Assembly: GCF_030209375.1 (NCBI RefSeq)
Contig: NZ_JARVSC010000003.1
Span: 186,001 to 250,000 of the forward strand
DNA: 64,000 nt
From: Plantibacter sp. ME-Dv--P-122b
Lineage (GTDB): Bacteria; Actinomycetota; Actinomycetes; Actinomycetales; Microbacteriaceae
Direction: 5' to 3'
Positions 56,491 to 60,744 of the stretch are shown here, in pieces. The translations under genes and the position numbers were made by a program. The notes beneath the pieces are model-generated. The model worked only from the letters and a program-made list of their open reading frames with translations, was not told the DNA's origin and did not search any database. Within the stretch, counting starts at the first letter, position 1, and each line of letters starts with the position of its first letter.

Positions 56491-56570
56491 CGGCCGCGCC
56501 CCGTCTGTCCGACACCCGTTCCGTGGCGGTCGTGTCACCCGATAAGGTGACTCCTCAGAGGAGCGTGAGC

Positions 56571-57737
56571 ATGGATCGGGTGGCGAGGACCCAGCGACGT
56601 CTGCTGCTGCGTACGACGCGCCTCTTCGGGCTCGCGGGTTGCGTCACGGCCGCGATGATCCTCAGCGTCCCGGGCGTCGTCTCGGGAGGTCGGTACACCG
56701 TCCTCCTCATCCTCGTCGCCGCCCTCGCGCTCACGCATGTGGCCGCGGAGCAGTACGACGGCCGTCGTTGGCTGGTGCTGGTGTTCCTGGTCGGTGTCGG
56801 GGTCGTCGTCGTCGTCGGTCTGTCCGACGGGAACACCGGCCAAGTCGGCTCCGCGAGCGCGATCGCCGCGATCACCTCTCTCGGCCTGGGCGCTGTCGCG
56901 GCCAGACTCGTGCCGCTCCGGCGCACCTGGCCGCTGCTCCTGACCGCGTTCGTCGTGACGGCGGTCACGATCATCGTCGTCACCGGGCCCACTGCGCTCA
57001 CGATCCCGACCATCGGCCTGACCGCGGTCGTGTGGATCGCGATCGGCGCCTTCGGCGGATGGCTCGACACGAGCATCCCCCGACTCATCCGTCGGGTCGA
57101 CACCATCGGCAGCGCCTACAACGCGGAGCGGCTCGCGAGTCAGGCCGAGTCGCAACGACGACAGGACGCACGACTCCTGCACGACACCGCGCTCGCGACC
57201 CTGACGCTGCTCGCCCACTCCGGACGAGGCGTCGACGCCTCCGCCCTTCGTTCTCAGGCCGGGAACGACGCGCATCTGCTCCGCAGCCTGCGCCTCGGTG
57301 AGGAGCTCAGCCCCGTCTCCTCCGGCTCGTACATCCTGCAGCGGGGTGCCGAGTTCACCCTCGACGAAGGCATCGAGGCCGTGACGGACCGGTTCGCCGG
57401 GCTCGGCCTCACGGTCAACGTCTACGGCGGTGGACAGGCGAACCTCGACCCACGCGTGCGCGAGGCGTTCCTCCTCGCGCTCGGGGAGTGTCTGGAGAAC
57501 GTCCGGCGTCACTCGGGCGTGGATTCGGCCGATGTCACGGTCTCGATCGACGAGCTGACGGCACGACTGCTCATCACCGACACCGGCACCGGGTTCGATC
57601 CCTCGGCCGTGCCGGACGGCCATCTCGGCGTCGCGGAATCGGTCGTCGCGCGCATCCAGGAGGTCGGCGGACAGGCGCGCGTCTTCTCCGCCCCCGGCGC
57701 CGGGACGACCGTCATCCTGGAGGTCCCGCAGGCATGA
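56571..57737 (+). CDS. Sensor histidine kinase (NarL/DesK-like)
   Basis: A 388-residue kinase with about six N-terminal helices (residues 15-180) as membrane sensor, then a coiled linker, a phosphoacceptor segment ARLLHDTALATL near residue 205 (H-D-x-A-x type of HisKA_3-like kinases), and an HATPase domain: N box LGECLENVRRHSG near residue 310 and G1 box ITDTGTGFDP near residue 338. ATG at 56571 follows AGAGGAG. A GTG two codons upstream is also possible. The stop overlaps the next start (ATGA), and the response regulator follows after that gene. Confidence 0.88.
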   Translation: MDRVARTQRRLLLRTTRLFGLAGCVTAAMILSVPGVVSGGRYTVLLILVAALALTHVAAEQYDGRRWLVLVFLVGVGVVVVVGLSDGNTGQVGSASAIAAITSLGLGAVAARLVPLRRTWPLLLTAFVVTAVTIIVVTGPTALTIPTIGLTAVVWIAIGAFGGWLDTSIPRLIRRVDTIGSAYNAERLASQAESQRRQDARLLHDTALATLTLLAHSGRGVDASALRSQAGNDAHLLRSLRLGEELSPVSSGSYILQRGAEFTLDEGIEAVTDRFAGLGLTVNVYGGGQANLDPRVREAFLLALGECLENVRRHSGVDSADVTVSIDELTARLLITDTGTGFDPSAVPDGHLGVAESVVARIQEVGGQARVFSAPGAGTTVILEVPQA

Positions 57738-58966
57738 GTGTCGACGCCCTCGAAGAGACCACCGGACCGACCCGGCGCTATCGCCATCGGCGCGCCATCG
57801 ACCGGCAGCGCTCCTCGCTCGGCACGCGGCAGCTCGGCATCGGCCTCTCGGTGTCCGGCCTCGTGCTCGTCGTCTACGCGGCGATCCGCTTCGTCGGGTC
57901 GGTCCACCACTACCCGCGACCACTGCTCAGCGTCGTCGCCTGGCTGCTGCTCACCGCGGCCATCGCGTCGACCTTCCTCCTGCTCCGTCGTTCCGCCTTC
58001 CACCTCTCGGATCGACTGTTCGTCGCGCTGCTGATCCAGCTGGTGGTGGTCGCCGCGCTCGACCTGGCGAGCGTCTGGAGTCGCGACGCCGTGGGCGTCT
58101 ATCCCACGGCGGCCGCGGCGGTCGGCGGCGTCCTGCTCGCGGTCGTCACCCTCCGACCGGTCCGCGACATCGCCGCCGCGACCGTGGTGCTCGGACTGAT
58201 GCTCGTGGGGTCGATCCTCACGATCACGCGGACCCAGACCGCGACGCTCGGGGCGGAGCTGCTCTTCGCCGCGGTCGCCGTCGTCCCCCCGCTCATCGCC
58301 TGCGCGATCGTCTCCCAGTACCGCCGGATCGTCCGCCTCGAACTCGACCGGGTCATGGTCGCCTCCACGGTCGCGAGCGTCCGGGACGCACTCGGGTTCT
58401 TCGACTCGGAGGAACTCGTCACCCTCGACCTCGAAGCGGAGGAACTGTTCGTCGGTGTCGCCGACGGCTCGGTCGACCTCCCGCTCGGCCCCGAGCTCGC
58501 GGCGCGCGCCTCCCGCCTCGCGACCGAGCTCCGGCGTCATCTCATGTCCGAGGGCAAGGAGTCCTGGCTCGAGCACGCGTTCCAGGAGTCGTCCGTGTTG
58601 TCGGACCGCGCGACCCTGCGCGACCCCGAGCGACTCGCGACGTATCTCGCAACGGATCAGCGGGATGGCCTGCTCTCTGCAGTATGGTTGCTCCTCGGGG
58701 AAGCAGATGCGCAGAGTGCCAGAGCTGTGCTGACGCTCGGACCGGTCGACCGCTCCGAACGACCGGGCCGATCTGGTGCGCTCGTCATCCCGATCGTCCT
58801 CGAAGCGGTCGGAGTGCAACGCGCCAAGGTGGATCCCGCGGTGTGGGAAGCGCTCGGACGAGTGGGCAGCTCTACGGACACGTACCAGAAATCCCGGATC
58901 AGGATCGAGATCGACAGCACCGTCGACAATCCTGCTGCGGGCCAGCGGAAAGGGGAACGTCAATGA
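57734..58966 (+). CDS. Membrane protein of the two-component operon, degenerate sensor-like
   Basis: A 410-residue protein with about six helices (residues 30-205) and a 200-residue cytoplasmic part starting VSQYRRIVRLELDRVMVASTVASVRDAL. The layout copies that of the kinase next to it, but I see no His phosphoacceptor box and no N or G box. The C-terminal part contains DLEAEELFVGVADGSVDLPLGPEL and ends hydrophilic. It is coupled on both sides by ATGA overlaps, so it is made with the kinase and regulator. It may be a co-sensor or an inhibitor that pairs with the kinase; not a recognised family. Confidence 0.75.
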   Translation: MSVDALEETTGPTRRYRHRRAIDRQRSSLGTRQLGIGLSVSGLVLVVYAAIRFVGSVHHYPRPLLSVVAWLLLTAAIASTFLLLRRSAFHLSDRLFVALLIQLVVVAALDLASVWSRDAVGVYPTAAAAVGGVLLAVVTLRPVRDIAAATVVLGLMLVGSILTITRTQTATLGAELLFAAVAVVPPLIACAIVSQYRRIVRLELDRVMVASTVASVRDALGFFDSEELVTLDLEAEELFVGVADGSVDLPLGPELAARASRLATELRRHLMSEGKESWLEHAFQESSVLSDRATLRDPERLATYLATDQRDGLLSAVWLLLGEADAQSARAVLTLGPVDRSERPGRSGALVIPIVLEAVGVQRAKVDPAVWEALGRVGSSTDTYQKSRIRIEIDSTVDNPAAGQRKGERQ

Positions 58967-59613
58967 CGTCACAGGAGTCTCGCATCAGGGTCGGCATCGT
59001 CGATGACCACCGGATGCTGCTCGGTGCGCTCACCGAATGGATCAGGAGCGTGGCCGACGACATCGAACTCGTCGTCGTCACCCCGTCCTGGCCGGAGTTG
59101 CTCACGCATCCCGCGTTCCCCGTCGACGTCCTCCTGCTCGACGTCGACCTCAAGGACAACGTCCCGGTCGCCGTCAAGCTCGCGACGCTCAAGACCACCG
59201 GCGTCACGACCGTCCTCATGAGCACCTACAGCGACCCGGCGGTCGTCCGCGAGGCCCTGGCCGCCGGCGCCTTGGGCTACCTCGCGAAGAGTGAGGACGC
59301 CGAGACCATCGTGCACGCCCTCCGTGCTGCGTCACGCGGTGAGTCCTACATCTCCCCCGAGCTCGATCTCGCCCTCGCGAGCGGCGCCTCGGGCACCGGT
59401 CCGCGGCTCAGCGCGCAGGAGCGTCGCGTCATGGCGCTGTACGCCGCCGGTGAACCCGTGAAGATGGTCGCGGAGAGCCTCGGCATCTCCGACGAGACCG
59501 CGAAGAGCTACCTCAAGCGCATCCGCGAGAAGTACCGCAACGCGGGTATCGACGTCGGCACGAAGGTCGCCCTGCGCAAGCGGGCGATCCTCGACGGCAT
59601 CATCGTCGACTGA
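58963..59613 (+). CDS. Response regulator, NarL/FixJ (LuxR-type HTH)
   Basis: A 216-residue regulator: receiver domain with acidic pair VGIVDDHRMLL near residue 11, phospho-acceptor Asp in VLLLDVDLKD near residue 59, Ser/Thr in LMSTYSD near residue 86 and Lys in GYLAKSED near residue 107. The C-terminal LuxR-type HTH runs from RLSAQERRVMALYAAGEPVK to TAKSYLKRIREKYRNAG. It ends the three-gene operon. Its target is unknown; the convergent Cys-rich precursor locus is a candidate. Confidence 0.9.
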   Translation: MTSQESRIRVGIVDDHRMLLGALTEWIRSVADDIELVVVTPSWPELLTHPAFPVDVLLLDVDLKDNVPVAVKLATLKTTGVTTVLMSTYSDPAVVREALAAGALGYLAKSEDAETIVHALRAASRGESYISPELDLALASGASGTGPRLSAQERRVMALYAAGEPVKMVAESLGISDETAKSYLKRIREKYRNAGIDVGTKVALRKRAILDGIIVD

Positions 59614-59625
59614 CGCGAACCGCTC

Positions 59626-59658
59626 GGTATGGCCGTTCACAACGTGAGCGGCCATACC
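59626..59658. terminator. Bidirectional terminator between response regulator and Cys-rich precursor gene
   Basis: GGTATGGCCGTTCAC (59626-59640) and GTGAGCGGCCATACC (59644-59658) form a 15-bp stem (one G-U pair) with an AAC loop, 12 bases after the regulator stop and between convergent genes. Confidence 0.85.
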
Positions 59659-59700
59659 TGTGTCAGCGCCAGAGGATTGCGAATGCTGTTTCCTCTGGGT

Positions 59701-60417
59701 CTACGCGTGCGCGTTCGCGTACGCAATGCAGGAGATGATCACCCCTTCGGAAATGCCGATCGCTGCAGCGATACACGCGGCGCACGCGATCCCGAACGTG
59801 ACAATGCACGCAGCCGCGCAGAGGGTCGACAATAAAGCGAGCGCCCAAGCAGCCACTCCCTGCTGGCCGAGGCACCAGTTCAATTCGCCCCACCAATCGC
59901 CGCTGCCCGCAACATCCCCGCTTCCCACGACGAATTGCGCCGCCTCCCCGGCAGTAATCGAGTCAGTAAACGTCAGTTCTCCGTCCTGCCAGGCTGTCAA
60001 CGATCCTCCGCCCGCCAGGTCGTCGACGAACTCGAGCTCAACCGTGTGCACAAACGCGCCTTCGGAGTCGAACAACACGGTGAAACTCGACAAGGGAGCG
60101 ATTCCCTGCCCCTCCATCGGGAACCTCACCGCCGAGTTTCCATCGACGAGATCCAGAACACTCTCCTCGCCGAGCGCAGGTGCCCCGTGGCCCCGAATTT
60201 CCATGTGCTCTCGCGCCGTCGAGGTCAGAGAAACGCGCTCGACCTCGTCAGTGACCACGGTCGGCGTCTGCGCCGCTGCACTGTGGAGAAAAGCTGAAAC
60301 ATCCGCCACCGGGGTCGTTTCCGCTGCCGCGGGTGCGGCATTGAGGCCGAGAGAAGAAAGAGCAATCACGACCAGCGTAGCCAACATTGCTGCTCGGTTT
60401 GATCCTTGCCCCTTCAT
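59701..60417 (-). CDS. Secreted precursor with Cys-rich hydrophobic C-terminus (bacteriocin-like candidate)
   Basis: A 238-residue protein with a Sec signal peptide (MKGQGSNRAAMLATLVVIALSS, cleavage near APAAAE), a soluble acidic middle part (about 37-180) without Cys, and a 57-residue tail that holds all six mature Cys: positions 182, 200, 204, 212, 215 and 230. The tail is almost pure Ala/Ile/Leu/Val/Gly with one Glu, near CAAACIVTFGIACAAC. A leader protein plus Cys-rich tail resembles halocin C8-type bacteriocin precursors in layout; family membership is not shown. The ATG at 60417 overlaps the stop of the small membrane protein gene (ATGA). Base composition is poorer in G+C than nearby genes. 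Function is inference. Confidence 0.7.
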   Translation of the reverse strand: MKGQGSNRAAMLATLVVIALSSLGLNAAPAAAETTPVADVSAFLHSAAAQTPTVVTDEVERVSLTSTAREHMEIRGHGAPALGEESVLDLVDGNSAVRFPMEGQGIAPLSSFTVLFDSEGAFVHTVELEFVDDLAGGGSLTAWQDGELTFTDSITAGEAAQFVVGSGDVAGSGDWWGELNWCLGQQGVAAWALALLSTLCAAACIVTFGIACAACIAAAIGISEGVIISCIAYANAHA

Positions 60418-60617
60418 CCTCGTGCTCCTCGAACGCTTCCAACACACGCCGCCGCGACGAAACATCCGAGGGACATTGTCCACAGCACGCTCGCAACCTG
60501 CGGAGCGGTCGTCACTGCGACGAGCGGTAGTCCTCCTCCGATGCACAGCAGCGCGACGACGACGCCGCGACCCATCCGGCCGTTCCCGGCTGCCGCGCGA
60601 GTGCTTTTCTCCACCAT
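60414..60617 (-). CDS. Small two-TM membrane protein, possible immunity or helper protein
   Basis: A 67-residue protein from ATG 60617 (MVEKSTRAAAGNGRMGRG) with two hydrophobic helices, VVVALLCIGGGLPLVAV and SVLWTMSLGCFVAAACVG, and a short basic tail. A longer form from GTG 60689 (91 residues) is possible because a TAAACT hexamer lies 8 bases before that GTG. Its stop overlaps the precursor start by four bases, so both are made together. Small two-helix proteins beside secreted peptide genes often give self-immunity; that is inference only. Confidence 0.6.
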   Translation of the reverse strand: MVEKSTRAAAGNGRMGRGVVVALLCIGGGLPLVAVTTAPQVASVLWTMSLGCFVAAACVGSVRGARG

Positions 60618-60697
60618 GAGCTCAATCCATCCTGTCGATGAGAGGATCTCGCGATGCTCGCACCGTTGCGGACATCGGTTCGACTTCACCAGCGTAG

Positions 60698-60742
60698 AGT
60701 TTATGAGCTTGAAATTCTAGATGTAAGCCTGATACGTAAGCG
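60698..60742 (-). promoter_or_regulatory. Promoter region of the Cys-rich precursor pair
   Basis: On the minus strand CTTACA (-35) is followed after 18 bases by TAAACT (60703-60698). GTAAGC occurs twice on the plus strand (60723-60728 and 60736-60741), 13 bases apart, just upstream of the -35; such spaced direct repeats can bind a response regulator. Confidence 0.4.
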
Positions 60743-60744
60743 AG

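Follow-up and report, generated by a model that had tools for sequence, protein, structure and literature searches.

The closest described counterpart of the locus considered here is halocin C8 of haloarchaea, which, according to the halocin C8 text of PMC11509114, is made as a 283-aa precursor (ProC8) that is exported through the Tat pathway and processed into HalI and a 76-aa peptide. Halocin C8 has been described as a single gene for production and immunity (title of Sun et al., 2005, via PMC11509114), and the halocin C8 text of the latter source does not name a two-TM partner. C8-like immunity/bacteriocin precursors are a kind that is already modelled by TIGR04449 (halocin_C8_dom), TIGR04450 (Gpos_C8_like) and NF040679 (halocin_of_epi), with the halocin-8-like N-terminal domain represented by PF22862 (Hac8_like_N). 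The SdpC/SdpI system likewise consists of a precursor with a signal, a domain and a hydrophobic C-terminal disulfide peptide, together with a membrane immunity protein. In polymorphic toxins it is the C-terminal tip that constitutes the toxin and the next gene that encodes immunity.

The window, i.e. the whole 64,000-nt stretch of DNA that was analysed, contains near its end a horizontally acquired two-gene cassette that is best explained as encoding a halocin-C8-like bacteriocin, in which the C-terminal tail of an exported precursor would be the toxin and a small two-TM protein the immunity factor; we consider this reading probable, the activity itself being predicted. The features of the cassette are as follows.

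59612..60744 (no strand): inserted cassette, bounded by the stop codon of a response-regulator gene on one side and that of an MFS gene on the other.
59626..59658 (no strand): inverted repeat GGTATGGCCG...CGGCCATACC, in the gap that separates the response-regulator gene from the convergent precursor gene, read directly.
59701..60417 (minus strand): precursor gene, 238 aa, comprising signal, acidic N-domain and six-Cys hydrophobic tail; supported by the ORF, homologues and purifying selection.
60319..60417 (minus strand): Sec-type signal sequence, residues 1-33, with a predicted cut site APAAAE; from sequence reading and a hydrophobic N terminus common to the relatives.
59875..60318 (minus strand): acidic N-terminal domain, residues 34-181; by hhalign a probable distant relative of the halocin C8 precursor N-domain.
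59704..59874 (minus strand): hydrophobic six-Cys tail, putative mature peptide, residues 182-238; from Cys invariance and pN/pS.
60414..60617 (minus strand): two-TM partner, putative immunity protein, 67 aa from ATG; ATGA overlap and two hydrophobic helices.

The precursor reads 238 aa from an ATG in the minus-strand ORF 59701-60417, and this start was chosen over the alternative in the ORF list (GTG at 60546, giving 281 aa) because only the inner ATG places the signal sequence N-terminally. Its N terminus, MKGQGSNRAAMLATLVVIALSSLGLNAAPAAAE, resembles a Sec signal that carries an AxA cleavage motif and shows no twin-Arg motif on sequence reading. The protein contains six Cys in total (C182, C200, C204, C212, C215 and C230), all within the final 57 residues and spaced C-17-C-3-C-7-C-2-C-14-C. 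By direct reading the tail carries one acidic residue and no Lys or Arg, and by direct count residues 34-178 hold 24 Asp/Glu versus 4 Arg and no Lys. The two-TM gene precedes the precursor gene and most likely starts at ATG 60617 (67 aa), with GACAGGATGG upstream, and less likely at GTG 60689 (91 aa); its end overlaps the precursor start in ATGA. The original prediction had reported the Cys spacing, the almost uncharged tail behind an acidic domain and a Sec signal, and a coupled two-TM protein upstream, all of which are borne out. The inverted repeat possibly represents a terminator shared by the convergent genes, although it has no T run and was not scored by a terminator scan.

Neither protein was matched above cut-off in Pfam or NCBIfam, and a PDB sequence search returned no sequence-related solved structure and nothing meaningful. 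Single-sequence AlphaFold2 models were poor (mean pLDDT 44.5 and 39.7); the tail was drawn with low confidence as a helical hairpin (block pLDDT about 60-79) and the N-domain was not predicted, and the hairpin was kept out of the evidence for the main reading. The PADLOC anti-phage defence models gave no match for the precursor or the two-TM partner, which bears on whether the pair could be an intracellular toxin-antitoxin or anti-phage module, with the hydrophobic protein harming the membrane of its own cell and the two-TM protein neutralising it. Such a module would suit a small, mobile two-gene cassette with tightly coupled genes, but an export signal and an extracellular-type acidic domain are present on the precursor, and six-Cys tails require an oxidising compartment; this explanation is very improbable.

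TIGR04449 (cut-off 24 bits) and PF22862 (gathering threshold 27 bits) were without match in the window precursor and its relatives, and TIGR04450 (cut-off 27 bits) was without match in the window precursor, which is not assigned to any of the three models because neither it nor any relative reaches their cut-offs. Haloarchaeal controls were recovered by TIGR04449 (P0001-P0003, 45.7-49.1 bits) and by PF22862 (P0001, 151.8 bits; P0002, 173 bits). One TIGR04449 match, in L018, was rejected as lying in a spurious frame. Among the relatives, TIGR04450 was the weak top match for L075, L070 and L008 (10.8-12.5 bits versus a cut-off of 27, reaching into the tail), and NF040679 matched L068 at 10.3 bits versus a cut-off of 200, the match again extending into the tail. 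Across 246 genomes of the host phylum TIGR04450 had no matches. The window family is best placed as a divergent branch that lacks a model of its own. The candidate 'undescribed' system of the original prediction is too strongly worded, since related kinds are covered by the four models named above.

Searches for the family with the protein or with profiles covered 1,378 genome look-ups in the host phylum (Actinomycetota), partly overlapping. Relatives were found in six of 400 genomes of the host family (Microbacteriaceae), and in single genomes from seven other families of the order and from two further families of the class; the sole match in a phylum-wide sample was the window's own genome. 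A seventh genome of the host family (L011) was dropped, its short match lying at the signal region only. The family totals 17 distinct loci and 18 precursors, the window and its G005 orthologue being taken as one locus. Scans of viral contigs and plasmids yielded no relatives, and two scans of genome contigs yielded no family members and, for halocin C8, one haloarchaeal locus.

Most relatives are 22-40% identical to the window precursor, and all six Cys are invariant in the 16 precursors that can be aligned over the tail, on which the Cys count rests. In these, the C-3-C and C-2-C spacings are constant, and the seven-residue loop varies, with one precursor having a shorter and four a longer version. 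Among 770,221 six-frame residues, the exact pattern C-3-C-7-C-2-C-14-C is confined to this family and a single RHS toxin tail. For the G040/G369 pair, pN/pS was 0.028 in the tail, compared with 0.254 for the N-domain and 0.314 for the two-TM gene, and between the window and its sister species G005 the tail differs by four synonymous and no non-synonymous changes (the pN/pS of the two-TM gene of the latter pair was discarded owing to an indel). The tail is the part of the precursor under the strongest purifying selection.

A two-TM partner is present at all 17 family loci, lying upstream of the precursor in the window, the second copy of G005 and G746, and downstream in G040, G369 (twice), G099, G682, G1331, G1326, G1246 (twice), G1265, G1295 and G1290; in G244 and G1332 it is fused in frame ahead of the signal sequence (L010 1108-2022; L069 1492-2481). 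When the same automatic rule was applied to 109 control ORFs drawn from the window and long loci, 13 had a two-TM neighbour; seven of these 13 were the cassettes themselves or adjoining genes, leaving a background of ~6%. The obligate pairing of a toxin gene with a small membrane gene that characterizes a bacteriocin with dedicated immunity gene is found throughout the family, the immunity role of the partner being putative. The partners are 54-78 aa in length and often Arg/Lys-rich at both ends, and both ends are therefore probably cytoplasmic, which is compatible with the in-frame fusions. G1331 has a tandem pair of diverged precursors with a single downstream partner (L075 1235-3010). Decayed copies are seen in G369, where the second precursor is broken by a stop, and in G1246, where the second precursor is without its tail; in both the two-TM gene is open (L013 1492-2310 / L076 1477-2289). 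Two-TM genes that outlast decayed precursors might be expected if immunity persists longer than the toxin.

A further match of the class-wide search (E 0.009) fell on the C-terminal end of an RHS protein in G580 (L017), which is accompanied by a second ORF.

L017 1396-1776: C-terminal tip of the RHS protein (protein 1-1776, with RHS repeats PF05593).
L017 1883-2092: two-TM ORF downstream of the tip, 69 aa, with GGAGG in front.

The tip, CGAVCVGTLGIGCAPCMGACSIAYGGALTYC, has a five-Cys spacing of C-3-C-7-C-2-C-14-C, identical to that of the window family, in a hydrophobic tail, and it ranks first of 5,001 sequences, the rest being its own shuffles (22.2 bits, next 16.2). It differs from the window family in being carried by RHS repeats rather than by a secreted precursor and in having further Cys and a charged extension, and it is a single example. 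The gap between the RHS gene and the two-TM ORF is about 110 bp, and the two may possibly form a polymorphic toxin/immunity pair. As far as one example goes, this arrangement suggests that the toxin resides in the tail and that immunity comes from the two-TM protein.

For comparison with halocin C8, 28 haloarchaeal TIGR04449 matches were fetched, of which 21 precursors were used. When gappy columns were taken out beforehand, hhalign aligned the 16-member family with the 21 halocin C8 precursors over 207 columns (Prob 93.8, E 1.7e-7, score 55.3), and none of 150 column permutations reached this score (maximum 17.8). The alignment is collinear, with signal on signal, N-domain on N-domain and C-3-C-7-C on C-3-C-7-C. 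A nine-member version of the family gave Prob 90.4 and E 1.4e-6, the run with gappy columns still in gave Prob 26.9 and E 6.8e-4, and comparison with three halocins was null, the diverse set of 21 being required. The N-domain alone gave E 2.4e-4 (score 29.0 versus a maximum of 13.9 in 150 permutations), and the tail alone was not significant against halocin C8. A reversed family profile scored 31.2 through the tail, and tail composition therefore makes up part of the full score. Single-sequence HMM searches were weak, the best being L073 with 10.0 bits versus a shuffle maximum of 6.8. The family and the halocin C8 precursors are probably distant homologues, a relationship carried mainly by the N-domain, with the tail strongly diverged. 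Membership of the halocin C8 superfamily in a broad sense, by homology beyond layout, is supported by hhalign, subject to the results for the tail alone and the reversed profile.

A 52-71-aa two-TM gene lies directly downstream at six of the 21 halocin C8 loci under strict conditions and at two more under slightly laxer ones (L023, L024, L029, L039, L040, L041, L044 and L048 together), and four other halocin C8 loci (L025, L028, L036 and L042) have a 3-4-TM protein downstream. The original prediction had noted the resemblance to halocin C8 in layout and had named a search with halocin C8-like HMMs as a check; the curated models are unmatched, the profile-profile comparison is significant, and the likeness, with its full-length alignment and the two-TM genes at halocin loci, exceeds layout.

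These links also bear on whether the precursor could instead be a membrane-anchored surface protein: its acidic extracellular domain would then be anchored or oligomerised by the tail, a membrane hairpin pinned by disulfides, and the two-TM protein would serve as membrane subunit or assembly factor. The tail is hydrophobic, hairpin-like in the low-confidence AlphaFold2 model and could span a membrane, and two loci encode precursor and two-TM part as a single fused protein. An anchor, however, needs neither six invariant Cys nor a tail so constrained while the exposed domain changes faster, and the patchy, cassette-like spread and the halocin C8 and RHS links suit a weapon better. Anchoring is on balance unlikely.

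The cassette is missing from five of the seven genus genomes, in which the flanks are contiguous to 59611 and from 60744 and the response-regulator and MFS genes are joined by about 60-210 bp of other sequence. Its G+C content is 60-63% versus about 70% in the surroundings, and on this composition and its patchy occurrence in the genus it is a recently and horizontally acquired element. Four other cassettes lie between direct repeats that duplicate the 3′-terminal part of a neighbouring gene or tRNA, and a fifth is flanked by a terminator-like repeat.

L058 6242-6460/7678-7896: direct repeat, 219 bp of a LacI-type gene, 95.5%.
L059 7755-7946/9228-9419: direct repeat, 192 bp of a small gene, 99.5%.
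L060 8301-8352/10253-10304: direct repeat, 52 bp, end of an aminotransferase-like gene, 90%.
L063 81-136/2279-2334: direct repeat, 56 bp of tRNA-Ser, 100%.
L061 8026-8077/9944-9995: terminator-like repeat, fifth cassette.

The LacI site is present as a single copy with contiguous flanks, a clean empty site, in three sister species. The bracketing repeats resemble att sites, and none of this sort was found at the 28 halocin loci of haloarchaea. The repeat-bracketed cassettes showed no integrase gene within them and may move by an integrase acting in trans or by recombination through the homologous gene end.

Beside the cassette, window positions 56523-59613 encode a MacS-like sensor kinase, a LuxR-type response regulator and an unassigned membrane protein. 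We rejected the idea of a two-component system dedicated to the cassette, as all seven genomes of the genus carry these regulators, including those that lack the cassette; the regulators are hence part of the genus background. The adjoining regulators would fit a secreted signalling or cannibalism peptide, functionally like SDP of Bacillus subtilis, whose released tail would act on kin as a signal or lysis factor while the two-TM protein would be its receptor or confer immunity, and the logic of the precursor is the same as that generally known for SdpC/SdpI. With the regulators not dedicated, no match to SdpC or SdpI models, and a rarity and patchiness that would be odd for such a signal, we regard this explanation as improbable.

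In the preferred reading, that of a bacteriocin with its immunity protein, the precursor would be exported by Sec, the acidic N-domain keeping the hydrophobic tail soluble and inactive through export. Outside the cell the tail would be oxidised to three disulfides and probably cleaved off as a ~60-residue helical-hairpin peptide, which would insert in the membranes of competing bacteria, while the translationally coupled two-TM protein, in the producer membrane, would protect the producer. By analogy with what is reported for halocin C8 the N-domain possibly contributes to immunity, as the original prediction implied for a leader domain, but the two-TM partner now appears the better immunity candidate. 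Against this reading stand the failure of all curated halocin C8 models and the count of six Cys versus about ten. The cassette contains no gene for a processing protease or exporter.

If this reading is correct, a new bacterial branch would be added to the halocin C8 type of antimicrobial, archaeal and bacterial weapons would be linked by homology and not by layout alone, and a testable immunity protein would be named that also lies beside many halocin C8 genes. Since halocin C8 is described as combining production and immunity in a single gene, the conserved second membrane gene directly tests that description. The cassettes would also supply disulfide-rich peptides in compact form and exemplify small islands that lie at gene 3′ ends and lack an integrase. 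No curated model or paper among those searched covers this branch, its two-TM partner at every locus, the fused forms, the connection to RHS proteins or the mobility of the cassettes. A wider proposal, which we advance tentatively and with some doubt, is that these loci define a new family of three-disulfide, membrane-inserting bacteriocins of Actinomycetota, that the toxin/two-TM pair is portable between an archaeal halocin, a Gram-positive precursor, an in-frame fusion and an RHS tip, and that cassettes of ~1.2-2.2 kb, carrying no integrase of their own, enter genomes at gene and tRNA 3′ ends.

Compared with the known systems, the window pair shares with SdpC/SdpI a Sec-exported precursor, a disulfide-bearing hydrophobic C-terminal peptide and a (putative) membrane immunity protein, but no sequence relation was found, the SdpC peptide contains a single disulfide, and SdpI is the larger membrane protein. 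TIGR04450, named as a putative immunity/bacteriocin fusion bifunctional protein, describes Gram-positive halocin C8-like precursors, of which the window family would be another case. The window family is of Sec type and bacterial, whereas halocin C8 is exported by Tat (the haloarchaeal set carries RR motifs) and haloarchaeal, and the window tail, with six Cys in 57 residues from the first Cys, does not have the size and Cys content of the mature halocin C8 peptide (about 76 residues and about ten Cys). With halocin C8 and its precursor ProC8 it has in common an exported precursor composed of an N-domain and a Cys-rich hydrophobic C-terminal peptide and, at many of the halocin loci, a small two-TM gene downstream.
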